Of a stretch of 38,749 nucleotides of DNA, positions 1,616-31,620 are shown piece by piece. Position numbers and translations under genes: made by a program. The stretch covers positions 1-38,749 of IMG/VR virus record IMGVR_UViG_3300037504_001322. One strand, 5' to 3'. Source of the stretch: a virus. The stretch's first letter is position 1; every line of letters begins with the position of its first letter. Under the pieces are notes generated by a model. It did not search any database. It had not been told where the DNA came from and saw only the letters and a program-made list of their open reading frames with translations.

Positions 1616-1724
1616 TCCATATATGTGCCCCCCCCCACGGGGGAGGGTGAATGAGGTCGCCGCCGGGGGGACCCTATATATGTTACTACAACTCAGGCCC
1701 GTTTTGGGTTAACAACGAGGGGTT

Positions 1725-2105
1725 ATGAAGCCTATTGAATTATTTGAGTGGTTAGAGTTAAGGGATGATGTAATTGTTGTTGGTGTTGACGGCATTGGAT
1801 TTCACTTCAAGGTATTGGGTTTGCCTTGGTATGAGGGAAATGCTTTGCGGGTGAATTTTGACGTTTTGGATGGTATTGATGTCAACGAATTGGCAGCGAT
1901 ATTGCATAGGGGGAAGGAAGTGGAACAGATAACGAGGGTAACGGGTTATTTCAGCAAGGTGGCGTCTTGGAACCGTGGCAAGTTGGGTGAGTTGCATAGT
2001 CGGAAGGTGAATGGTTTCAATGTTGGCGGTAGTTGTGGGGTGACTTGTGATCCTTTGGTTGGTTTTTGTCGGAATGATGAGTTAAAGAAAAAGGTAATGG
2101 GGTAG
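1725..2105 (+). CDS. Orphan glycyl-radical protein, NrdD C-terminus-like
   Basis: 126 residues; start supported by GAGGGG just before the ATG. Residues 68-94 closely follow the C-terminal signature of class III ribonucleotide reductase (NrdD): an R-V-T-G-Y motif at 71-75, in which Gly74 would be the radical-carrying residue, then W-N-x-G-K (82-86) and E-L-x-x-R (89-93). The catalytic barrel (some 500 residues) is absent and the two CxxC zinc pairs that normally precede the motif are missing. Instead there is an unrelated N-terminal half of about 65 residues, and three cysteines (residues about 104, 108 and 118) follow the motif. It could be a spare radical-carrying part for the host enzyme, an inhibitor mimicking it, or a remnant. 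Codons here end in T (GGT, GTT) far more than in the neighbouring head genes, suggesting separate origin. Function is inference. Confidence 0.6.
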   Translation: MKPIELFEWLELRDDVIVVGVDGIGFHFKVLGLPWYEGNALRVNFDVLDGIDVNELAAILHRGKEVEQITRVTGYFSKVASWNRGKLGELHSRKVNGFNVGGSCGVTCDPLVGFCRNDELKKKVMG

Positions 2106-2436: not shown

Positions 2437-3951
2437 ATGGCTAAAAGCCGACAGCCAAAAGATTTCAGTTTTGATCGTCAGATTGCCGGATTCAGTCCGA
2501 AGCAAATGGAATTTGTGCGTCGGATGAGTTCGGGTCGTTATAAGTATGGGTTGTACGGCGGCGCTCTTGGGGGCGGCAAGAGTTACACTTTGAGGTGGTA
2601 TGCTTTACGAAGGCTGATCTATCTTTTTAAGTATTACGGTCTCCGGGGCGCTATAGCCATGATTGCTTGTGAAGATTACCCGACTTTAAAGCATCGGCAA
2701 TTGGACCGGTGCATTATCGAGTTCACGAGCAAGGGCAAGCAATTCGGGTTTAATTTTGGGCGGCTTTACAAGAAGGAGCGGGAATATGTTTTGCATGATG
2801 ATTGGGGCGGCGGCAAAATTATTTTCGGCAATCTTGACGAGCCCGCCAAGTACGCGTCGGCTGAGTTTTGTTTAATTGCCGTCGACGAGTTGACTAAAAA
2901 CACTTACGACGTTTTCACTCATTTACGGACAAGGTTACGTTGGCCGGGATTGCCGGATCACGAGACGCAGTTCATAGCGGGGACAAACCCAGGTTCGATA
3001 GGGCACTCTTGGGTAAAGCAACTTTGGATTGACCGTGATTTCGGTGAAGAGTGGTCCGGTTTTGAGGACAGATTCATTTACGTTCAGTCCTTAATGAAGG
3101 ACAACCCTCACTTGGACGCGAGCTATTACAAGATTTTGGATACCTTGCCCCCTCAGATACGGAGTGCGTTTCGGGACGGCGATTGGAATATTTTCGTGGG
3201 GCAGGCTTTTGATTTCAATCCCAAGCATCATGTGATGAAGAGGTCTGAGGGGCCGCCTCAGATACCGCCGCGTATGGCTCCGTTATATACGACTTTTGAT
3301 TGGGGTTTTGGGGCTCCGTTTAGTTGGGCTTGGTGGTATGTCGACGAAAAGGACCGTTTGATAAGGTTTGCCGAGTGGTATGGTTGGAACGGGACGGCCA
3401 ATGAGGGTATGCGGATAACGGATGAAGAGATAGCCGAGGGTGTTGTCGAGCGTGAAAAAAAGATGGGCCTTGGGGGTGCGAGCATCACGAGGCTGGCCGG
3501 TCATGACTGTTTTCAGAAGAGGCCGAATTATTTAGGCGGCGGCCAGGGGCCTAGCACGGCGGAGGTTTTCGCCAAGCATGGTTTGATTTTGATCAAGGCC
3601 GACAGCAACAGGGTTTTAAAGATCCGGGCTTTCCGGGAGAGGCTGCGAGTTCGTGAGGACGGGAAGCCGGGGCTAATCGTGACTGAAAACTGCAAGCACT
3701 TTATTCGAACTATTCCGAACCTGGTTACCGATGAACGTCATTTTGAGGATATTGATACGAAATCCGAGGATCACGTTTACGATGAGGCTTGTCATATATG
3801 TATGTTTCGGGCCGAGGCTTTTCGTGAAGAGGTTCCCGAACCGGTCAAGACGATGGCTCAACAAGACTGGGAGATGGTCACCGGCCAGGTGGAGGATGCC
3901 GAGGGCGAAGCTTGGTATTTAGACGATTATGAAATGGAGATGATTGCATGA
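2437..3951 (+). CDS. terL: Terminase large subunit (packaging ATPase-nuclease)
   Basis: 504 residues, normal for the family. The N-terminal ATPase has a Walker A motif GGALGGGKS (41-49), a hydrophobic Walker B strand ending in Asp-Glu (LIAVDE, 146-151) and a coupling motif GTNPG (182-186). The C-terminal RNase H-like nuclease shows its first acidic strand at about 287-291 (FDWGF), a second acidic site around AGHDCF, and a late Asp in HVYDEACH. The protein pumps DNA into the prohead through the portal and cuts concatemers. It opens the head gene cluster and its stop overlaps the next ATG (ATGA at 3948). Confidence 0.95.
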   Translation: MAKSRQPKDFSFDRQIAGFSPKQMEFVRRMSSGRYKYGLYGGALGGGKSYTLRWYALRRLIYLFKYYGLRGAIAMIACEDYPTLKHRQLDRCIIEFTSKGKQFGFNFGRLYKKEREYVLHDDWGGGKIIFGNLDEPAKYASAEFCLIAVDELTKNTYDVFTHLRTRLRWPGLPDHETQFIAGTNPGSIGHSWVKQLWIDRDFGEEWSGFEDRFIYVQSLMKDNPHLDASYYKILDTLPPQIRSAFRDGDWNIFVGQAFDFNPKHHVMKRSEGPPQIPPRMAPLYTTFDWGFGAPFSWAWWYVDEKDRLIRFAEWYGWNGTANEGMRITDEEIAEGVVEREKKMGLGGASITRLAGHDCFQKRPNYLGGGQGPSTAEVFAKHGLILIKADSNRVLKIRAFRERLRVREDGKPGLIVTENCKHFIRTIPNLVTDERHFEDIDTKSEDHVYDEACHICMFRAEAFREEVPEPVKTMAQQDWEMVTGQVEDAEGEAWYLDDYEMEMIA

Positions 3952-19647: not shown

Positions 19648-22600
19648 ATGGCCATTGATTTAAACAAATTAGCTGAGGAGCTTAAGCAAAGAAAAGCTCA
19701 AGGCGGAAAAGAAGCAACATCTTCGGTCGAGACTGATGAATTCGGCTTAAACAAGTTGGCGGAAAAAATCAGGCAATCAAAACCTCAAGCCGCAAGAGAA
19801 GAACCATCTCCGGTTGAATCCGACCCCAACCCTTACGCCGAGGCGCGGGCTCAGCTCCTTTACCGCAAAGCCATGAACAGCTTCCAAAACAGCAGCGGGT
19901 TTGAAGAAGTTCTACGGTCTTTACCTAGGGGTTTTTTGGCGGGCGGCGGGGAGATGTTGGGGAGCCAGTTGCGGGCCACGTCGGATTTACTTCAACGGGG
20001 CGGGCTTATAAAGGGCGACCCCACCGACTATGATGATACTTGGGCGGAACGAACCGGGCAGTCCATACAAGACTATACTCAAAAACAAGTCGAAGAGCGC
20101 CCTTGGTTGCAGCCCGACCCCTTGCATACCAATTGGTTTTCACAGGCGGCTGAATCAACCGGTCAAATGGCGGCGGGGGCCGCAATCAATTTGCCCCTGG
20201 CTTTTACCGGTTCTCCCACGGCCTTTGCCGCAGGCATGGGCGTTACTTACGGAATGAGCGCTTATCAAAGCGTTCTTGACAGGGCTCAGCCTTTAATCGA
20301 GGCCGGTGAACTAAGCGAAGAGGATGCGTTTGAAGCGGCCGTGGTTTCAGGTTTGGCCGAGGGCGCGACTGAAATGGCGGCGGACCGGTTTTTCCTGGGG
20401 CTTTCAAAGTTCGGGGGGAAGTTCACCGGCCCCGCCAAAGAGGGCGTCAAAAGGGGCGTTTTAAAGTTTTTGCAGCCGACGTTGTCCAAGGCCGTGCGAA
20501 ACATGGTGTTGGGCGGAACAGGGGAGGCGGTTACCGAATCGATAACCGCCGTCATTCAAAACGAGCAGGAAAGGGAAATCGGGTTAACCACCGCGAAAAC
20601 AATGGATGCGGTTGCTGAAGTCTATGGTCCGTCGTTCATTATGGGCGCGTTCTTCGGCCTTGGCGGAAACGTATATCAAAGGTCGAAATTTAAAGGGCTT
20701 GTCAAAGATATTAACGGCGACGATCCACGGAAACAAATAGACGCCATTGACAACGTCTATAGGCAATTATACGCGCAAGACCCCAACATCGCCCGCAGCT
20801 GGTTGAAGGCCTCTTACACGGCGGTTTTAACCGATCAGAAAATAGACCTTGAAACACCTCTCGCCGAACAAGAGGATTTTGTTCCAGGCTTAGCCCCGGA
20901 AGCCGAGGATCTGGCGGCTCTGGACGAGCGGTTGGCCAATTTTGACGTCAACATTGCGGCCATGGGGAAAGCCCTGGAAAATGTCAAGGACAAGGATCGG
21001 CGCAAAGACATTACGTCTCGAATACAAGGGATGCAGCAAGCCAGGGCTCGTGCGGCTGCGGCCAGGGACCAAGCTCGAAAAACCTTGTTCCAAGCGGAGC
21101 CGTTTGACGTTTCAGGAGTAGGCCGCGAGGAGAAAGCCGCCGAGGGGCAACCGCCTCGAACAGAACCTGAGCCCGAGGCGGATCAGGCTGAAACCGTTTC
21201 CGAAACCATTGATTATTCAGGACCCGCCTCGGAGGATATAGTTAAGGCTCAAAGCGAAGCCATGCCCAAACTTCGTCCCGAGGATCGTCCCCGTTCCATG
21301 GAACCGGGATACCCGGAAACGCAAACAGAGGAAGATCGAGTCAGCCCGGAATGGACTTATGATCCGGGCAATGAAGAATACACCAGGGGCGACGGGGAAA
21401 AAATCAAGGTCAGGGTTAAAAAACTCGACAATGGGAACTATGGCTATGAATATCGAAGGGGCGACGATTACATAACCCCCAGTAAAGACAAGTCCGGATT
21501 TGCCACGCCTCAAGAAGCCATGGACAAGGGGGATGCCGCCGTTAGACCACACCTCGTGCCCGTCGATCGTGCTTCAGACAGAATTCAGGGACCATCACAG
21601 CCGCCTTCAAAACCGACTGGACCTGAGCCTGGGCGGGGAGCGCCTCAGGGGCCTGGCGAGGCCATAAGAACGGAATACCCGGAAGCGGAAGCCGAGGAGG
21701 ACCTTGCCAGCCCGGAATGGACTTATGATCCTAATTATACGGAATATACCATAGGCGACGGCGACAATGTCAATGTTGTGGTCAAAGAGCACAGTAACGG
21801 GAATTATTATTACGAGTACCGTCGGGGGAACGATTACGTTACGCCGTCGAAAGACGGGGCCGGGTTTGCCACGATTGAAGAGGCCATGGCGGCCGGGATC
21901 CGAGAATATACAAGCAAACATGGGGAAGATCCGACTAGACGTGAATCGCCCGAGGCCGGTGTTGAACCCGATCAAAAGGAAGCCCCTGAGCCTGTCGACG
22001 TTTCAGAAGCGGTCCGAGAGGAAAAAGCCGTCGAGGAACAATCGCCTCCTCAACAACCGACGACCCCCGAAGACAAACGGAAAACGCTTGAGGAACCGGT
22101 TGATGAAACGATTTATTTTAAGGACGAAAAAGATTTCAACCGACAAATGGCCGAGGCCGAAGCGGTTGGCGACACCCGAAAGATGGGCGCATTGGCTCGT
22201 GAAATGGCCAAGCGCCGTTATACCGATCCCTTAACCGGATTAAAAAGCCGTGCGGCCTTTGACGAGGCTCAGCGAATAGAGCAGGAGGAAGGCGGCGGCC
22301 AACGCACATGGGCCAGCATTGACGGCAAGGGAATAAAATATGTAAATGACACTTTCGGCCACTCGGTCGGAGATGAATTAATCAGCCTAATAGGCCGGGC
22401 TTTCGGAAGGGATGGACAGGGACAAGACAGCCCAGTGGAAGCTTTCCGTGTGGGCGGGGACGAATTCGCCATCAGGGTCAAAGGCGAGCGTAGTGAAGCG
22501 GAGATTAAAGAGGCCATTGACAAGGCGAACGCATGGTTGCAAGATAATAAATTAATCGTGGAACATGAAGGACGCATGTTCGAATACATACCGGAGTTTA

Positions 22601-25600
22601 GATATGCCGAAGGACAAACATTCCAAGAAGCGGACGAGCGCTTGGCTGAGACCACCAGATCTGAAAGCGGAACTGGTGATGAAAGAAGATCCAAAGACAG
22701 AAGAAGGCAAAAGCCTCCAGGATTTATTGAAAGAACTACCGGGAGCACGCCTCAAGATAGGAGAAAAGCGGAACGAAGACAAGAACAACAACCCGCCGAA
22801 GAAATAGCGGAAGAAATTCCTGAAACGCGGGATTTTCTTGAGCAAGAAACCACCCCTAAACGGGAACCCGAGACCGGAACTGAGCCCGATCAAAGAAAAG
22901 CCATAGGAACGGAATATCCGGAAGCGGAAACCGATGATGATCTTGTCACTCCGGAATGGACTTATGATCCGGATTTTAAGAACTACGCCATAGGCAATGG
23001 CGAGGATGTCAATGTTATAGTTAAAAAACTTGACAACGGGAACTATGGTTATGAATATCGAAGGGGCGACGATTTCATAACTTCACCAAGAGACGAGGCC
23101 GGGTTTGCCGAGATTGAAGATGCCATGGCGGCTGGGATCTCTGAATATAAATACGAACATGGTGGGGAAGATCCGACTAAACGGGCGACGGAAGGAGCAA
23201 CCGCAGTATCCGGCGACCCCCAAAAGATGAGCACATTTGGTCGTGAAATGGCCGAACGATTGTCCAGCGAGAAAAAAACCACCCCTAAACGGGAACCCGA
23301 GGCGAAAAAAGACACAGCTAAAACCGCCACGGAAGAAAAACTATTCGACGCATATAGTGAGTTAGTGGAAGAAACCGGCTTTTCGAGTGTCGGCATATAC
23401 CATTTGCAACAGGCGTCCGGCTTGCCCATGGACAAGGTTAAAGAAACTTTACGGGAAATGGGGCGGGACGGCCGGGCGGTTTTTGCTCGCGGCGATTGGT
23501 CTTTATCGACGCCGGAAGAACGAGAAGGACAAATCGAGATCAACGGTATTCCTCAGTTGGTTGTGCGGTTGGATACGGAAAAAAAGCCGCCAAAGAAAAC
23601 CGAGACGCGAATTACGGAAACAACACCCGAACAGAAGACCCAAGAGATTTCAGGCGACGCCGAGAAAGACGCGGCCGCGTTGAAGTCTTTTAACGGCACG
23701 ACCCAAGAGGCCCGCGATTTTATGAGAACACAATATAAAACCGTAGCGGCCTTGAAGCGGCTGGCCAAAGAGATGGGGATCAAGAATTATAGCCGAATGA
23801 AAAAGGCCGACTTGGAGGCGGCTATTGTTGGAGAGTCCGGAGCAAAACTGCAAGAACCCATCATGGACACTTTAGCCGGTCCGGTTATCGAACCGAAACC
23901 AGCCGTTGAACCTGAGGCCGAGGCGGAGGTTGACCTTGACGAGTCCGGGGCGGAAGATATGGACGCCGAACCCGAATTCACCGCCGAAGCCGCTGTGGCG
24001 AAGCAACTTGATTCGCTTGAGGAAGAGCCGACTAAATATGTGGAGATGGAAGGTAAAACGCCAGAGGCACTGGCCGAGGAACTGGAGTGGGATGAAGACT
24101 TTTTGCCGCGAGTCCGGGAAGAGGTTGAAAGCGGCTGGTACACCGAACAAGAGATAATTGACTCCAATACCAGGGTTTTTGAATATATAAGCGAGCTTGA
24201 CGTTAAAACGGCTATTCAGGCTTTGGGCGGAATAAAAGAAAAGGCGACCGACGCCGATGTCATGAAGCCTGTTCCGGAGAGAGATGTCAACCCCATTGAC
24301 GAATTGACCGAATCACAACAACATCTTTCCGCTCTATTGGACTTGGACGGAAACGAAGTCAAACCGTATCTATCGAGGCTGAACAAAAAAGTTCTTTCTT
24401 CGATTGCGCAAGACATAGGCCTTCCGGTCAAGGGGAAAAAGGCGGATATAGTTGATAGTATAGCTCAAAAAATCAACGCGGCACCGGGGAAACCGGATAC
24501 GGGTAAAAAGGCCGACGTTGAGCCGAGGTTGTCGCCGGAGCCGCCTCTAAAAAAACAAGCGGCGTCTGTCGAGGATGCCGTTCGCGGGGCGGCTCGAAAA
24601 CTGGGCGTCAAGAGAGCGGAAAGGGTGTTGGATGAAGGCGGCAACGAATCGCTTTTACTGGCCTTAAGTCACATCGAGGCGGAAACTCAAACAGGGTTGG
24701 CGGCTAAAATAAGAAATTTTCTTGTCGATTTGCAGGACGAGCTAAGGGCCTTGGCCGCCGAACAGGGATTCAGCAAAATGCAACCCACGTCCCTGGGGAA
24801 ATACAAACATCAACTGCTTGGAAAATCGGGATTGTTAACCGGGGCTTACGGCGAGATCCAAGCCGAGGCTGTGATCGATAGGGATTTGGCTCCCATCGTT
24901 GAAGCCGTGGACGCTTATATAGACAAGTTGTTCGGGGTTGATAAAAAAAGTGTCGTACAATATGTGGAAGAGATTGGGGATGTCCGGCAACGAACCTCAC
25001 CCCAACCTCGTCGAAATTGGACGCCGCCGGAACGAAGCAAGGCCGAGGAAAGAGTCAAGAAATTAATTTCCAAAACCGTTAAAAAACCCAACGTTACGGT
25101 TATTGAAAGCATAGACGATTTACCGGCCGAAAAGCGCCGCCTGGTGCCCCAACGCGGGCTGCTTGTCCAGGGCTTGTTTTTTGAATTCGACAACTCCATT
25201 TATATTATTTCCGGCAACCATCAGAGCCTGGCTCAAATAGAAGAAACCCTTGCTCACGAGATGTTCCATGAGGGGTTGAGGCCGGTCTTGGGCGAACGAT
25301 TTGACGCGGTGTTGGACGGGATTGCCGTTCAGCAAAACCTACCTGGGAACACAGTGCCCCAAAAAAGGAAGGCGGCTGAGGAATGGTTGACCGACAAGGC
25401 GGTTCGCGGGGACTATTCCAACGGGATGTTTCAAAAGGCCATCGGCCTGCTAAGGGATTTTCTTAGAAAAATAGGCTTTAATCTGTCGCTTAACGATGCC
25501 GACCTGGCCCGAATGATCATCCAAACCAAACAGCACGCTTACAAAAAGGGCGGAGTAAAAATACGAGGGGGCAAGGTTCCCGCTAACGGGGTTTATTTCG

Positions 25601-28600
25601 CGGCGGCTGGAGCCGAAAAACTGGACCAGCTGACTAAAGCATATACAAATAGCGATACATTCGGCGATTTACTAAACGCGGAAGTGCCGCCGAGCTTTTG
25701 GGTGGATGAGCCGGAACAGAAATACCTGGCCGACCAATACGACAGTTACCAAGAAATGATGGGAAATCCGATTCGGGCTTACCGCGACGGCGAGAGCTTA
25801 TATGATGCCGAAGAAGCGGACGCGCCTTTGGGTCGGGAGGCCGAAGTAGTTTTCTTGTCGGATCTTTTTCCGGAAGGGAAACCGGATTCGAGTCTACGCG
25901 TCCCCGATTATGACGCGATAATGGACGAAGCCTATGAAATGGAAACAATTTATGATACGAGCACTGATCGTTATCTAGGCGAAACGCCTTTACGAAGGCC
26001 TTTGCGCAAAGAGCAACAGAGGCGGCTTTTGCAAGCCTGGGGGGAAATGGCGAAAAAGACCAAGGCCTTCCGGCTTCCTAAATCAAAAAGCAAGGATATA
26101 CACAAAGTCGCCCAAGAAATCGGCGGCGAAAAAGTGACCGTTGAAAGGAAAAGAAAAGGGAATAAAACGGTTTGGCACTTAAAAACATCGCAGGGTTACA
26201 TTAGGATTATTCCGGCTTCCAACAATAACCCGAATCATTTCTATATCGATTCATCGTTCGCCAACCAGTATATGGGTTCGACCTTGCATCAAATAGCGTT
26301 GACCTGGGCGCACAATAACGATTTCGTGATGTTGCCGGACACGGCCGGGTATACGCCGATTAACTTGCTGCGCTATATAGAAAACATGATATCTTCCGCT
26401 TTGCGCCATAGAACGACCAAGCATTTATGGCCAAGTTCGGCGCACCGTCTGCCTTCCTGGGAAGCCGGTCAGCACGGGCAAAACATAGTATCGCTACTGA
26501 CCAAGGCCAGGGAGCTTGTTTATAGATATTTACCTCAGCTGCAAGGCATGACTTACGACTTTGACGGCCAAACGGTCAGGGATGCAAACGGAAAGCCTAT
26601 AAGCGATGAAGAACTGTCGGATATGCTAAACCTTGACCAGGTTGCCCCGGTTACCGGTACGGGTTTGACCACCGTTAAACGGGCTATAATTTCCGATACT
26701 ATTTTACGAGACAAACGAAATGTTTTGCAAAACAAGGAAGACCTTCGCCTTTTTGACAACGCGCTTTACAGCAAGGAAAGCCAAACCGGCGAAGCCGTGT
26801 CTTTGGATGATATCAAGAAAGTTTTTAAAGGTCAACGTGTCTCGGTAAACAAAGACGGCAGTGTATCGGTGGATACTCATGGCGGTCGGTCTTTGAAGAT
26901 AAATTACGCCAAGCATATCGGTCCGGATGTCGTCGAGGTTCAGTTCGCCAACGACGGCAAGCAAATACAGGGCCGGTATATCAATAACACCATTACGCTC
27001 AAGAAAGACACCGCCGACCGGTGGACTTTGTATCACGAGACGACTCATTGGCTGGAAGACAGCGGTATCCTGTCCAAGGCGGAGGTGGCGGTTTTACGCG
27101 ACCATATCAGGGATTTGATTAAAAAAGGCAAGATCCAAAGGTCCATAGATAACGGCGGCGTGGAAGACCGGGCCAGGTTTATAGAGGCTTCCTTGTATCG
27201 CGATGATTTGGCGGGGGCCGTTCAAAAGACGATCAACAAGATTAGGCGCTGGGTTGCCAAGCTGGCCGAGTTGGCCGGGGTTCATAACCGTTCCGTTTAC
27301 GGTATTTTGCATGATATTGAATCGGGGTCGATTTACGGCAGGCGAGTGGGCGACCGAATGATGATTACTCGCAAGCCTAGTTACTCCGAAGCGGCTGACA
27401 CTTATTATAGCCAGATGTATAGGACCATGGAAAAGAAATTGCCGGGGTCCGGCCCCGCCCAACAAATCAAACAGACCATAAAATCTTGGCGAGACAAGGG
27501 CGAGATAAAGTCCGAGGAATTAGAATGGTCCGGGTTGCTGGAATGGTTGGATAAGCGGGAAGGCAAGGTGACCAAGGAAGATGTTTTAGGCTATCTGAGA
27601 GCAAACGAAATAAAATTAGAGACGGTTGTATTCCCATCCCCAAGGGCAAACGACCCCGCTTATTGGGAAGTGAGACGAGAGAATTTAAAGCGCAAGCTTT
27701 CAATCACCCCGAATCTTACCGAATGGAAGACTCGTCTTAAAAAATTCAATATTGATGCGCATGATTATTTTGTAAGGAATAAAGAAAAACCATGGGTGAT
27801 CACGTGGGATCGTGAAGTAACGGACAAGGACCTTGAGGCCGGGCGTATCGGCGATCCGGAAAACCCAATAACTAAAGAGTTTCTTGAAAACAACAATCGG
27901 TTTAAAACTAAAAAAGAGGCCCAGCTTTTTATGGATAAGTTGGGGCTTCCTGAGGATGATGGCTTGCATGGTTTTGTGGTGGAAAAGGATGAATGGGAAT
28001 TCCTCTTTTCCAAAAAGGATGAACTCTATCAAAGAGTTGATGACATTCCGCTTTTTGAATTATTTCCTGACGAAGAGCGCCATGAAACATTCCGGGAACT
28101 GACCCCAACAAAATATGATAGATATCAGACCCCTGGGCCTAAATCGAATTACCGGGAAATAATAATGACGCTTCCGCTTGACGCCGATAGGGGGGTGAAA
28201 TATACAAGTTCCCATTGGAGTGGAAGAATGGCACCCAACCCGGTTGTGCATTTTCGTGTCAGTGAGCGGCTTGATGTCGACAATAACCGTATTCTTTACG
28301 TGGATGAAATTCAAAGCGACTGGGCTCAAGAAGGACGCGAAAAGGGTTATTGGGATGAACAGCGTCCCGTGTGGAGGTTTGACGATCGCAAGGTTAATTT
28401 AGAAAACCTTGGCGCTGAGTATACCGACAAAGTTGAAGCGGAAGACGCGGCGGAAATCCTTGGAACCGTCCTTCCGAAGAAGAGAAAAGGGTATGGCGCA
28501 CCGCATCAGCCATTCAAGAAGACTGAAACCTGGGCTTTGCTGGCCTTCAAAAAAATTCTCCGCATGGCCGCAGAGGGAGGGTTCGATGGTGTGGCTTGGA

Positions 28601-31600
28601 CGCCGGGGCAAGTGCAATCTGACAGATATAGCTTTGAGAACATTAATGAGCGTGTTGAAAGGATATACTATAGAAAAAAAAGCAATGATAATTTTTTTGT
28701 AGCATTTGATCTTGGTCTCGGCAACTACGGAAAGGTATTTAAAGGTTCCGAGTTGGATAAAATCTTCGGGAAAGACGTCGCCGATAAAATGCGTAGAGGG
28801 AAAGGAGCTCTTTCCGCTTGGGGAGGGGGGAGGCGTTTGCCTATTCCCCAAGGTGTTTCATATGATTTCGGCAAAGGGATGAAAGGGTTCTATGATAATA
28901 TTTTACCCAAGGCCGTGGGCAAATACACGAAAAAGTGGGGCGGAAAAGTAGGGACGACCACAATAAACGAGGGTCAAGAAGTTTGGCATATTCCCATCAA
29001 TGAGCGCATGAAGCGTGAGGCCGTGTATGAGGGGCAACCTTTGTTCGCCAAGCACCGGGCTCCGGAAGCCTTACGGGACATGTTCGGCGAAGAAAAAAAG
29101 GAAAGCGTCGCCGATAAGGTCGGCAAGGCTTTAAGCCGAACGTCTCTTGTGGACAGGCTTCATCCCATCTTAAAGCTTGGGGAGAAGGGGCAAACTTCGA
29201 ACAGTAAGGAAATTGCGCACCAATTGTATACCAGGGCGCGTAACACGGCAGGCGGAGCCGGTCAGGTCGAGGGGTTGATTAAGTACGGCCCCTTGACCGT
29301 GGAAGACGGTCAAATGGTGGTTGATGTCAAGTCCGTTCAAAAAAACGGCGCACAGGGCCTCGAACAAATTATGAAGGACCTTCGACGCGACCTCAAAGAC
29401 GGGGATTATAAAAGCGTTGATCCTATTAACCTGTTTTATTGGATGGCGGCCAAGCGAGCCGAGGAAGATCTGCCCAAGAAAAAAGATTACACTGAAAAAT
29501 TGATGGACCAAGAGCGGCGTGACCGGGTGTTTAAAACCATCGCGGAACGTAACGACAAACATTTTATCGAGGCGGCGCGAAAGGTCAGGGTGCTAAACAA
29601 CTCTATTATCGAAGCGGTTCATCGGTTAGGGTTTATTGACGCGGCGCTTGCCGACAGAATGAAGGCCGATTCATTTTACGTGCCTTACTATAGGGTTTTT
29701 GAAGAAATCTCTCAACAAGAGGAAACCAAAAGGCCCGGCTTTAATGTTCAAAGTATAAACACCGGCATTAAAAAGATCCTGGGGAGTGACCGCAGGATCG
29801 GCGACCCCTTGCAAAACTTGTTGCATAGTTGGGTTCATTTAACCAGAGAAGCTCAACGGAACAAAGTGATCGACGACACGATAAATTTTATCGAAGAGCA
29901 GCAAATAGAAGGCATGGTTGACAAAGTCCGCTCGCCTTCGATAACTTCCAAGCACATTATTACTTTTCAGCAAAACGGCCAACAGGTTCATTATCGTATT
30001 AACGACCCCGAATTATTCAATGCCTTGACTCAAATTAATATAAAGTCTTTAAAAAGCGCCGGTGACAAATTTTTCGCTTGGCATAAAAGAATACTAACCG
30101 CCGGGGCGACGATGGTCCCGACTTTCTGGCTGCGAAACTTAATCAGGGACCCGTTGCACACATCGGTGATTCATAAGGGTTTCAATCCTTGGGACGCGGT
30201 AAAGGGCGCGGCTAAAATAATTCGGAATCATCCTGATTATATCGCGTTCAAAACCGGGGGTGGGGCCTTTTCCGGGAGTTACCTACAATCTCAAAACGCT
30301 CGGGCCTCGGAGGTTGTTGCGGATCGCCTGATAAAGAAATTCGGGGGGAAGGCCAAAGTTAGCATAATTGATTCACCTAATAAAGTGATTCATTTTATGA
30401 GCTACCTGGCCGAGATATCCGAAAACGCTTCCAGGGTGGGGTTATATTCCAGGTTACGAAAAAAAGGAGTGGGGCATAGCCGGGCGGTTTATGAGGGCCG
30501 GGACATTATGGACTTTTCCTTGTCCGGATCGGGAGAAGGATGGGTCGGCGGAGCCTTGCAGTTTCTAGTGAACACTGTCCCGTTTATGGGGGCCAGAATC
30601 CAAGGCCTGTATAAAATCGCCAGGTCCGGCGGAGATCTTGTTAGAAATCCCAAAGAAAATAAAGCCATGGCTTTAAAAGGGCTGGCCTTGTTCATGGCCG
30701 GATACTTGCTTTACGAAGCGTTCAAGGACGATGAGGATTATAAAAAGCTGAACGACTATGAAAAAAGAATGTTTTATTTCGCTAAAATCGGCGACCATAA
30801 AATATTTATTCCCAAGCCCTTTGAAATGGGAGCCTTGTTAGGGACATTGCCGGTGGCTTTCGCCGAATCCATGGAGGGCAGGGAAGACTGGGAATATTTT
30901 AAAAAGATGTTAACCAAGACCGCCATGGATACGTTTTCGTTCAATCCGTTGCCTCAGGCTTACAGGCCGATGATAGAATTGTGGGCGAACAAATCTTTCT
31001 ATAGAGACGCTCCAATTGAAGGATTTGCGCAACAGCGTAGGTTACCGGCGGATCGAACCAAATATTACACATCTCCTCTTGCCCAGAGCTTGGCTAGAAC
31101 CGATGTGGGTGAGGCTCTTGGACTATCGCCATTAAAAACGGAGCACGCGATTAGAGCTTACTTCGCCACAGTCGGCTCTATGACCTTGCATTTTATGGAT
31201 ATGGCCACGAGGGGCGCTATGGGATTTCCTGATATACCGGACTACAACCCGTTAACGGAAGCTTTTGTTAAAACTCGTGAACCGGGAACGACCAAGCATA
31301 CGCAAGAGTTTTATGAGAAAATGGTTGAGGCGGAGCAAGCTTACGCTTCCATGCAGTATTGCATTCAGACCGGGGATTTGACCAGGTTTGAAGAAATCAA
31401 AAAAGAGTTTGAAAATTTGGTGGCTTGGCGCAAGGCGGCGAATAAGGTGCGTGGGTCTATGTCAAAAATCAATAATCGTATTGAGCTAATCGCCCTTGAC
31501 CCCAATAAAACCGATGAGGAAAAACAATCTTTAATCGATGAGTTAAACAAGACTAAAAATGAAATCGCCGTTCAGGCGATGGAATATTTAAAGGAAATAA

Positions 31601-31620
31601 ACAAAGGCAAGGTGGGGTGA
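19648..31620 (+). CDS. 3990-residue polyvalent ejection protein (GGDEF, zincins, LPD38)
   Basis: One uninterrupted frame, 31 percent of the window. Order seen: N-terminal double motif LNKLAE (5-10, 34-39); hydrophobic segments at about 174-204 and 330-340; a beta-plus-helix repeat at 566-630, 688-766 and 1101-1178; a GGDEF domain (about 856-985); a winged-helix-like segment (1232-1308); SAP-like helical segments (about 1342-1394 and 1570-1609); zincin motif HEMFH (1870-1874); a region with ENMISSALRHRTTKH (about 2158-2280); a second zincin motif HETTH (2463-2467); a region carrying DEIQSDWAQEGREKGY (2600-3137); and a C-terminal LPD38-like region (about 3490-3870, IPKPFEMGALLG at 3721). This mosaic is the hallmark of phage polyvalent proteins, which travel in the virion and act on the new host. 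Delivery and effector roles are inference. Confidence 0.85.
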   Translation: MAIDLNKLAEELKQRKAQGGKEATSSVETDEFGLNKLAEKIRQSKPQAAREEPSPVESDPNPYAEARAQLLYRKAMNSFQNSSGFEEVLRSLPRGFLAGGGEMLGSQLRATSDLLQRGGLIKGDPTDYDDTWAERTGQSIQDYTQKQVEERPWLQPDPLHTNWFSQAAESTGQMAAGAAINLPLAFTGSPTAFAAGMGVTYGMSAYQSVLDRAQPLIEAGELSEEDAFEAAVVSGLAEGATEMAADRFFLGLSKFGGKFTGPAKEGVKRGVLKFLQPTLSKAVRNMVLGGTGEAVTESITAVIQNEQEREIGLTTAKTMDAVAEVYGPSFIMGAFFGLGGNVYQRSKFKGLVKDINGDDPRKQIDAIDNVYRQLYAQDPNIARSWLKASYTAVLTDQKIDLETPLAEQEDFVPGLAPEAEDLAALDERLANFDVNIAAMGKALENVKDKDRRKDITSRIQGMQQARARAAAARDQARKTLFQAEPFDVSGVGREEKAAEGQPPRTEPEPEADQAETVSETIDYSGPASEDIVKAQSEAMPKLRPEDRPRSMEPGYPETQTEEDRVSPEWTYDPGNEEYTRGDGEKIKVRVKKLDNGNYGYEYRRGDDYITPSKDKSGFATPQEAMDKGDAAVRPHLVPVDRASDRIQGPSQPPSKPTGPEPGRGAPQGPGEAIRTEYPEAEAEEDLASPEWTYDPNYTEYTIGDGDNVNVVVKEHSNGNYYYEYRRGNDYVTPSKDGAGFATIEEAMAAGIREYTSKHGEDPTRRESPEAGVEPDQKEAPEPVDVSEAVREEKAVEEQSPPQQPTTPEDKRKTLEEPVDETIYFKDEKDFNRQMAEAEAVGDTRKMGALAREMAKRRYTDPLTGLKSRAAFDEAQRIEQEEGGGQRTWASIDGKGIKYVNDTFGHSVGDELISLIGRAFGRDGQGQDSPVEAFRVGGDEFAIRVKGERSEAEIKEAIDKANAWLQDNKLIVEHEGRMFEYIPEFRYAEGQTFQEADERLAETTRSESGTGDERRSKDRRRQKPPGFIERTTGSTPQDRRKAERRQEQQPAEEIAEEIPETRDFLEQETTPKREPETGTEPDQRKAIGTEYPEAETDDDLVTPEWTYDPDFKNYAIGNGEDVNVIVKKLDNGNYGYEYRRGDDFITSPRDEAGFAEIEDAMAAGISEYKYEHGGEDPTKRATEGATAVSGDPQKMSTFGREMAERLSSEKKTTPKREPEAKKDTAKTATEEKLFDAYSELVEETGFSSVGIYHLQQASGLPMDKVKETLREMGRDGRAVFARGDWSLSTPEEREGQIEINGIPQLVVRLDTEKKPPKKTETRITETTPEQKTQEISGDAEKDAAALKSFNGTTQEARDFMRTQYKTVAALKRLAKEMGIKNYSRMKKADLEAAIVGESGAKLQEPIMDTLAGPVIEPKPAVEPEAEAEVDLDESGAEDMDAEPEFTAEAAVAKQLDSLEEEPTKYVEMEGKTPEALAEELEWDEDFLPRVREEVESGWYTEQEIIDSNTRVFEYISELDVKTAIQALGGIKEKATDADVMKPVPERDVNPIDELTESQQHLSALLDLDGNEVKPYLSRLNKKVLSSIAQDIGLPVKGKKADIVDSIAQKINAAPGKPDTGKKADVEPRLSPEPPLKKQAASVEDAVRGAARKLGVKRAERVLDEGGNESLLLALSHIEAETQTGLAAKIRNFLVDLQDELRALAAEQGFSKMQPTSLGKYKHQLLGKSGLLTGAYGEIQAEAVIDRDLAPIVEAVDAYIDKLFGVDKKSVVQYVEEIGDVRQRTSPQPRRNWTPPERSKAEERVKKLISKTVKKPNVTVIESIDDLPAEKRRLVPQRGLLVQGLFFEFDNSIYIISGNHQSLAQIEETLAHEMFHEGLRPVLGERFDAVLDGIAVQQNLPGNTVPQKRKAAEEWLTDKAVRGDYSNGMFQKAIGLLRDFLRKIGFNLSLNDADLARMIIQTKQHAYKKGGVKIRGGKVPANGVYFAAAGAEKLDQLTKAYTNSDTFGDLLNAEVPPSFWVDEPEQKYLADQYDSYQEMMGNPIRAYRDGESLYDAEEADAPLGREAEVVFLSDLFPEGKPDSSLRVPDYDAIMDEAYEMETIYDTSTDRYLGETPLRRPLRKEQQRRLLQAWGEMAKKTKAFRLPKSKSKDIHKVAQEIGGEKVTVERKRKGNKTVWHLKTSQGYIRIIPASNNNPNHFYIDSSFANQYMGSTLHQIALTWAHNNDFVMLPDTAGYTPINLLRYIENMISSALRHRTTKHLWPSSAHRLPSWEAGQHGQNIVSLLTKARELVYRYLPQLQGMTYDFDGQTVRDANGKPISDEELSDMLNLDQVAPVTGTGLTTVKRAIISDTILRDKRNVLQNKEDLRLFDNALYSKESQTGEAVSLDDIKKVFKGQRVSVNKDGSVSVDTHGGRSLKINYAKHIGPDVVEVQFANDGKQIQGRYINNTITLKKDTADRWTLYHETTHWLEDSGILSKAEVAVLRDHIRDLIKKGKIQRSIDNGGVEDRARFIEASLYRDDLAGAVQKTINKIRRWVAKLAELAGVHNRSVYGILHDIESGSIYGRRVGDRMMITRKPSYSEAADTYYSQMYRTMEKKLPGSGPAQQIKQTIKSWRDKGEIKSEELEWSGLLEWLDKREGKVTKEDVLGYLRANEIKLETVVFPSPRANDPAYWEVRRENLKRKLSITPNLTEWKTRLKKFNIDAHDYFVRNKEKPWVITWDREVTDKDLEAGRIGDPENPITKEFLENNNRFKTKKEAQLFMDKLGLPEDDGLHGFVVEKDEWEFLFSKKDELYQRVDDIPLFELFPDEERHETFRELTPTKYDRYQTPGPKSNYREIIMTLPLDADRGVKYTSSHWSGRMAPNPVVHFRVSERLDVDNNRILYVDEIQSDWAQEGREKGYWDEQRPVWRFDDRKVNLENLGAEYTDKVEAEDAAEILGTVLPKKRKGYGAPHQPFKKTETWALLAFKKILRMAAEGGFDGVAWTPGQVQSDRYSFENINERVERIYYRKKSNDNFFVAFDLGLGNYGKVFKGSELDKIFGKDVADKMRRGKGALSAWGGGRRLPIPQGVSYDFGKGMKGFYDNILPKAVGKYTKKWGGKVGTTTINEGQEVWHIPINERMKREAVYEGQPLFAKHRAPEALRDMFGEEKKESVADKVGKALSRTSLVDRLHPILKLGEKGQTSNSKEIAHQLYTRARNTAGGAGQVEGLIKYGPLTVEDGQMVVDVKSVQKNGAQGLEQIMKDLRRDLKDGDYKSVDPINLFYWMAAKRAEEDLPKKKDYTEKLMDQERRDRVFKTIAERNDKHFIEAARKVRVLNNSIIEAVHRLGFIDAALADRMKADSFYVPYYRVFEEISQQEETKRPGFNVQSINTGIKKILGSDRRIGDPLQNLLHSWVHLTREAQRNKVIDDTINFIEEQQIEGMVDKVRSPSITSKHIITFQQNGQQVHYRINDPELFNALTQINIKSLKSAGDKFFAWHKRILTAGATMVPTFWLRNLIRDPLHTSVIHKGFNPWDAVKGAAKIIRNHPDYIAFKTGGGAFSGSYLQSQNARASEVVADRLIKKFGGKAKVSIIDSPNKVIHFMSYLAEISENASRVGLYSRLRKKGVGHSRAVYEGRDIMDFSLSGSGEGWVGGALQFLVNTVPFMGARIQGLYKIARSGGDLVRNPKENKAMALKGLALFMAGYLLYEAFKDDEDYKKLNDYEKRMFYFAKIGDHKIFIPKPFEMGALLGTLPVAFAESMEGREDWEYFKKMLTKTAMDTFSFNPLPQAYRPMIELWANKSFYRDAPIEGFAQQRRLPADRTKYYTSPLAQSLARTDVGEALGLSPLKTEHAIRAYFATVGSMTLHFMDMATRGAMGFPDIPDYNPLTEAFVKTREPGTTKHTQEFYEKMVEAEQAYASMQYCIQTGDLTRFEEIKKEFENLVAWRKAANKVRGSMSKINNRIELIALDPNKTDEEKQSLIDELNKTKNEIAVQAMEYLKEINKGKVG
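21343..23184 (+). repeat. Three-copy domain repeat inside the giant gene
   Basis: Three units of about 65-78 codons begin at 21343, 21709 and 22948. Each starts with S/T-PEWTYDP, continues with a Gly-Asp turn, a V-x-V-K strand, NGNYGYEYRRG or a close variant, and ends in a GFA-x-x-EDAMAAG helix. Preceding linkers (an EYPEAE-type stretch) and following linkers (DVSxxxREEKA at residues 487 and 784) are also repeated, so the copies arose by segmental duplication. Copies 2 and 3 are the most complete at the C-terminal side (HGEDPT). Function unknown. Confidence 0.8.

Follow-up and report, generated by a model that had tools for sequence, protein, structure and literature searches.

A stand-alone NrdD-type glycyl-radical protein in a phage, a probable exchangeable cofactor for anaerobic ribonucleotide reductase

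Why would a small phage encode the radical-bearing end of anaerobic (class III) ribonucleotide reductase (RNR) as a protein of its own, and which enzyme would such a protein serve? Once activated, glycyl-radical enzymes can be cleaved by oxygen at their radical glycine. This cleavage has also been described for the class III enzyme NrdD (PMC12288474). YfiD (GrcA) of E. coli and its phage-carried counterpart Y06I of T4 repair oxygen-cleaved pyruvate formate-lyase (PFL) by supplying a fresh segment, and these PFL spare parts are the only two that have been validated, others being speculation (PMC8683613). RNR surveys place the glycyl-radical domain solely at the C terminus of the alpha chain (PMC9531940, PMC9669993). 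In a literature search limited to non-subscription papers, and hence no proof of priority, no class III glycyl-radical protein of a stand-alone or split kind came up; the family described here is apparently undescribed so far. The gene in question lies in the window, the whole 38,749-base stretch that was analysed, which is a single virus record whose genes include those for terminase, portal, major head and tail fibre. A preliminary description had read it as an orphan NrdD motif, and had offered either a phage spare part for NrdD or a mimic that blocks the NrdG activase.

A short phage gene matching the end of NrdD

The gene is the first in a rightward series, ahead of a 77-residue gene and the terminase (Table 1). 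Its product contains ITRVTGYFSKVASWNRGKLGELHSRK and matches Pfam NRDD (PF13597) with E = 1.6e-5 at profile positions 531–560 of 562 only, at a score of 24.2 bits that lies slightly below the curated cut-off of 26.2, and TIGR02487 with E = 3e-5 at positions 548–579 of 581. The similarity to NrdD is confined to its final ~30 residues, radical glycine included, and confirms the RVTGY ... WNxGK ... ELxxR signature that had been proposed. Chance does not explain the match, since the NrdD family is also hit by 58 of 58 relatives, and beyond the NrdD families residues 64–94 match nothing notable in Pfam or NCBIfam. The best solved relative is the glycyl-radical domain of P. copri NrdD (8p23), to which the family profile aligns with E = 4.4e-6.

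Table 1 Features of the gene and its immediate surroundings in the window
Feature	Position	Strand	Basis
Ribosome-binding site, GAGGGG, upstream of ATG start	1717–1722	+	Sequence
Stand-alone NrdD-type glycyl-radical protein, 126 aa	1725–2105	+	ORF, NrdD family matches, 8p23 match
N-terminal domain, residues 1–65, alpha-beta-beta-beta-alpha-alpha, presumed docking domain	1725–1919	+	AF2, N-domain profile
Glycyl-radical segment, residues 64–94, homologous to NrdD C terminus	1914–2006	+	NrdD profile matches
Gly74 codon, predicted radical glycine	1944–1946	+	NrdD R-[IV]-T-G-Y alignment; invariant in 58 relatives
C-terminal tail with C104, C108, C115, predicted disordered	2007–2102	+	Sequence, AF2
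Next gene, 77 aa	2114–2347	+	Same direction; no PHROGs match
Terminase large subunit, context gene	2437–3951	+	PHROGs 979, E 3e-14

The likeness to the C-terminal glycyl-radical domain of NrdD (T4, T. maritima and P. copri 8p23) consists of the R-[IV]-T-G-Y loop and the WNxGKxxELxxR helix, and the window protein carries this NrdD feature as a radical loop followed by WNxGKxxExxxR. Unlike NrdD, it is a separate protein with neither barrel nor zinc ribbon, and has a new N-terminal domain instead. In P. copri NrdD, the glycyl-radical domain presents a zinc site and then the buried radical loop (PMC11226230). No zinc-binding cysteine pairs precede the radical segment of the window protein, in which no cysteine occurs before residue 70, and the single NRDD match in the whole 38,749-base record is the one to this gene; the NrdD barrel and zinc site are therefore absent. 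The 126 residues likewise hold no ten-stranded NrdD barrel with its radical cysteine, and the orphan motif of the preliminary description is borne out by the end-of-profile match and by its being the only one in the record.

The C-terminal tail reads SCGVTCDPLVGFC at 2034–2069 (residues 104–115), and another phage member of the family (L068) ends in ...DCNSACPVAQAVG. This may be a redox tail of the kind found in class I/II RNRs.

A claim that the gene uses different codons from its neighbours did not hold, its codon usage being not significantly different from the rest of the phage (z = -1.55), with a GC content of 44% against about 50% in the phage and a high TTG share of leucine codons. The most unusual codon usage among the genes tested belongs to the 77-residue gene downstream (z = -2.89). 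Elsewhere in the record, a sigma-70-type promoter that scores a perfect 12/12 and has a TG extension lies at 1566–1594 on the minus strand and would serve the leftward genes upstream, and one ORF of 3,990 residues (19648–31620) occupies nearly a third of the sequence. The terminase gave only distant matches to known phages as a means of identifying the host, and no NrdG was found in the window phage; that its host has a suitable NrdD is what we infer.

The protein family and its N-terminal domain

Relatives were collected from viral contigs and cellular genomes with the degenerate pattern TGY[FY]-x6-WNxGK and then with a profile; a direct single-sequence scan of viral contigs recovered no relatives of the window protein. 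Members adopt one of two layouts. Layout A, that of the window protein, spans about 95–125 residues and joins an N-terminal domain of ~65 residues to the NrdD-type radical segment, and layout B comprises proteins of 45–75 residues that are hardly more than the segment itself. They are found in phages, Thermoplasmata, Omnitrophota, Margulis/Saganbacteria, Eisenbacteria and Desulfobacterota. The preliminary description had cast the protein as a phage device, and the spare-part idea is well supported at the level of the family; its restriction to phages is not, as bacteria and archaea have the protein too.

Across 58 aligned A-type members, mean column identity is 35% and R71, G74, N83, G85, K86, E89, L90 and R93 are invariant. 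When relatives were checked for mutation of the glycine, none of the 58 had lost it, an invariance that is partly by construction since the seed pattern included this residue. The window protein retains all eight of these residues, Gly74 included, and with its N-terminal domain followed by such a segment it belongs to the family as defined.

The N-terminal domain is predicted to be a confident compact fold (AF2 pLDDT of about 85–97 in 10-residue blocks over residues 1–60). AF2 leaves the radical loop unstructured except for a helix at residues 84–93, and the segment alone is not confidently folded; such disorder would be expected of a part that folds once bound. A profile of the N-terminal domain without the segment returned 41 matches in 36 genomes, all of them stand-alone proteins and each with the segment. 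A fold search with the AF2 model gave no confident match, the best PDB entry being a HicA-type fold (E = 0.64, VIA Z 4.1), a result that does not demonstrate a new fold.

Among 30 orphan-bearing virus records, which may be fragments, 27 have no NrdD barrel and three have a barrel that lacks the segment, in line with the expectation that the orphans sit in virus genomes without a full nrdD; two other records from the virus search are ordinary NrdD genes and were left out of the 30. Virus sequences are spread over several cellular clades of the tree (at least 4 forced changes), which implies repeated transfer. With its long end branch (1.61) the window protein is among the most diverged members, and it groups without strong support with phage and Desulfobacterota/Myxococcota proteins. 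Two other virus orphans (L075 and L076) fall in the Eisenbacteria clade, where most NrdDs lack the glycine.

Two further arrangements were observed. One protein of 137 residues (L255, record G185), encoded just upstream of a barrel-only nrdD, has several zinc-ribbon-like cysteine pairs before its radical segment, and several virus full-length NrdDs (L014, L015, L017 and others) continue beyond the glycyl-radical segment into a fused TCPNC domain that is glutaredoxin-like.

By its size and its C-terminal segment from a large radical enzyme, the protein resembles YfiD/GrcA and Y06I. Unlike these, its segment is of NrdD type rather than PFL type, its N-terminal domain is a different one, and its proposed target is RNR. 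Membership of GrcA itself was rejected: no PFL or GrcA match was obtained with Pfam or NCBIfam, and NrdD models alone match all 58 members. The best reading of this comparison is that the stand-alone protein would work like an autonomous glycyl-radical cofactor, yet by sequence falls outside GrcA. Division of an RNR between two genes is known from the class II enzyme NrdJa/NrdJb of Pseudomonas aeruginosa (PMC4520616; PMC9669993). That case differs in that class II RNR has no glycyl radical, and its split part is no radical carrier.

Loss of the NrdD glycine and genomic neighbours

A-type proteins occur in 36 of the cellular genomes, of which 34 have an NrdD barrel, 34 have NrdG2 scoring above its cut-off, and 13 have a class I/II RNR. 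The two genomes with no detected barrel (G012 and G016) are MAGs, and an NrdD copy may have been missed, since most of the cellular genomes are MAGs. The C terminus of NrdD was readable in 31 of the 36 (five being unreadable), and 12 of these 31 have lost the cis glycine or the whole segment from NrdD. Three retain the rest of the segment with the glycine replaced (RVTSHG in G002, RVSDY in G006 and G010), and in nine NrdD is truncated between the zinc ribbon and the radical loop (G004, G008, G009, G014, G026, G027, G028, G030 and G031), the zinc ribbon being kept on the truncated enzymes. Intact RxTGY is found in 14 genomes and RVTGF in five, so that many host NrdDs keep their own glycine, which leaves the need for a spare hypothetical there. 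The loss in G002 consists of in-frame base changes, and a related genome whose stand-alone protein is near-identical (G152) has an intact NrdD. Three Eisenbacteria nrdD genes (L195, L202 and L203) stop short of the radical loop, and a decayed and still recognisable copy of the segment lies beyond the stop. In a separate case (L169, genome G029), the radical segment is intact and the nrdD frame upstream of it is broken by an in-frame TAA, which could be a sequencing error, a split or recoding.

We then compared genomes with and without the glycine in two groups. In a sample of 20 genomes of the Eisenbacteria class with 17 readable NrdDs, the glycine is absent from 13 of the 17, and 12 of those 13 genomes have the stand-alone protein, the exception being a 1.7-Mb MAG (G048). 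Three of the four intact genomes also carry the protein, so this class alone offers no contrast (p = 0.43). Among 118 Desulfobacterota genomes, a separate segment accompanies seven of seven barrel-only NrdDs, each time downstream at the same locus, versus three of ~61 intact ones (p = 1.2e-7). With both groups pooled, a separate part is present for 19 of 20 glycine-less and 6 of 65 intact NrdDs (p = 7.6e-13), tests to which MAG quality and shared ancestry apply as caveats and to which split operons contribute by nature. The spare part of the preliminary description is thus supported insofar as the glycine is lost where the stand-alone protein is present, and needs amending insofar as the protein, being the sole glycine source in several lineages, is a true subunit there.

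Gene order points the same way. In one Thermoplasmata genome (G014), the stand-alone gene stands directly between a barrel-only nrdD and nrdG2; it directly follows a barrel-only nrdD in three further orphan-bearing genomes (G008, G026 and G027) and adjoins nrdG2 in yet another (G018). Two virus records (G186 and G194; L003 and L042) have a barrel-only nrdD, an nrdG-like gene and a 75-residue B-type ORF in a row, an operon that apparently represents a split class III RNR in a virus.

Recurrent neighbours of the cellular A-type genes, identified by Pfam, are Fur-family regulators (Fur/PerR-like), Rrf2, rubrerythrins, desulfoferrodoxin and flavodiiron-type proteins. Oxygen-defence genes (Fur, rubrerythrin, desulfoferrodoxin, flavodiiron) accompany 12 of 39 orphan loci versus 0 of 41 full-NrdD loci (p = 6.5e-5), a comparison whose baits were chosen from the orphan loci and whose linked loci, about a third of the total, come from a limited set of lineages. 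None of these genes was found in contigs picked arbitrarily from the same genomes (247 kb), nor in 187 kb around the NrdD genes of orphan-bearing genomes and their relatives.

A probable exchangeable radical part and its alternatives

Three lines of evidence, namely cis glycine loss, operons and oxygen-defence linkage, say that the family proteins would supply the radical glycine to class III RNR in trans. For the window gene, the genomic evidence favours, with a probability of about 0.78, an exchangeable glycyl-radical cofactor protein for the class III RNR of the host. The host activase NrdG or NrdG2 would place the radical on Gly74, and the N-terminal domain would dock on host NrdD. The RVTGY loop could then enter the barrel as a substitute for the loop of the enzyme itself, which would be missing either through an oxygen cut at the glycine or because the host NrdD lacks it. 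Ribonucleotide reduction would resume and feed phage DNA synthesis.

The strongest competitor, which we hold to be unlikely yet worth weighing, is that the protein is an obligate radical subunit, one of two parts of a host enzyme whose NrdD never has its own glycine; the phage would merely add more of this subunit, with no repair of oxygen damage. Barrel-only NrdDs with separate segments are common, and L075 and L076 sit within a clade of mostly glycine-less Eisenbacteria, both as this account would have it. The readable hosts of the window protein's own, weakly supported group are however mostly intact (G001, G005, G017, G029 and G152, with G002 as the exception), and the linkage to oxygen defence points to repair.

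It is improbable that the segment has been co-opted to serve another glycyl-radical enzyme or a non-enzymatic role such as oxygen sensing. The N-terminal domain belongs to no known family and G012 and G016 have no NrdD barrel, though both are MAGs; against this, NrdD is present in 34 of the 36 genomes, the gene adjoins nrdD and nrdG2, and genomes with the protein are those in which the cis glycine is lost. A decoy role, in which the protein would tie up NrdG and so block ribonucleotide reduction in the host, is less credible again, even though the retained RVTGY motif is the target of the activase and may allow NrdG to be bound. A decoy would have no use for the conserved WNxGKxxELxxR helix, phages profit from more dNTPs, and the relatives lie in nrdD–nrdG operons and are the sole glycine source in many genomes; the NrdG-blocking mimic of the preliminary description was rejected on this operon and dependency evidence. 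That the gene is a functionless piece of nrdD, left over or arisen by chance, as the shortness of the segment and the divergence of the window member might suggest, is scarcely tenable given a conserved N-terminal domain unique to the family, residues invariant across a large sequence distance, a ribosome-binding site and an intact frame.

The exchangeable cofactor also offers a route by which the arrangement may have arisen. The encoded truncated NrdDs end near the expected oxygen cut. Most simply, class III RNR would have a replaceable radical part, which may have begun as a means of repair and become the sole radical carrier in some lineages. Class III RNR in bacteria, archaea and phages is probably modular, with a small exchangeable glycine protein serving both as an oxygen spare and, where the cis glycine has decayed, as the sole radical subunit, and with phages that bring only this small part and fit it to the enzyme of the host.

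Glycyl-radical spare parts other than those for PFL have been proposed and none validated (PMC8683613), and the present case adds natural genetics, in the form of lineages that retain the small protein and have the NrdD glycine mutated or cut away. For strict anaerobes, this would be a possible mechanism for continuing DNA synthesis after exposure to oxygen. For a small phage, it may be a cheap form of nucleotide security, at 126 codons as against the ~700 codons of nrdD.
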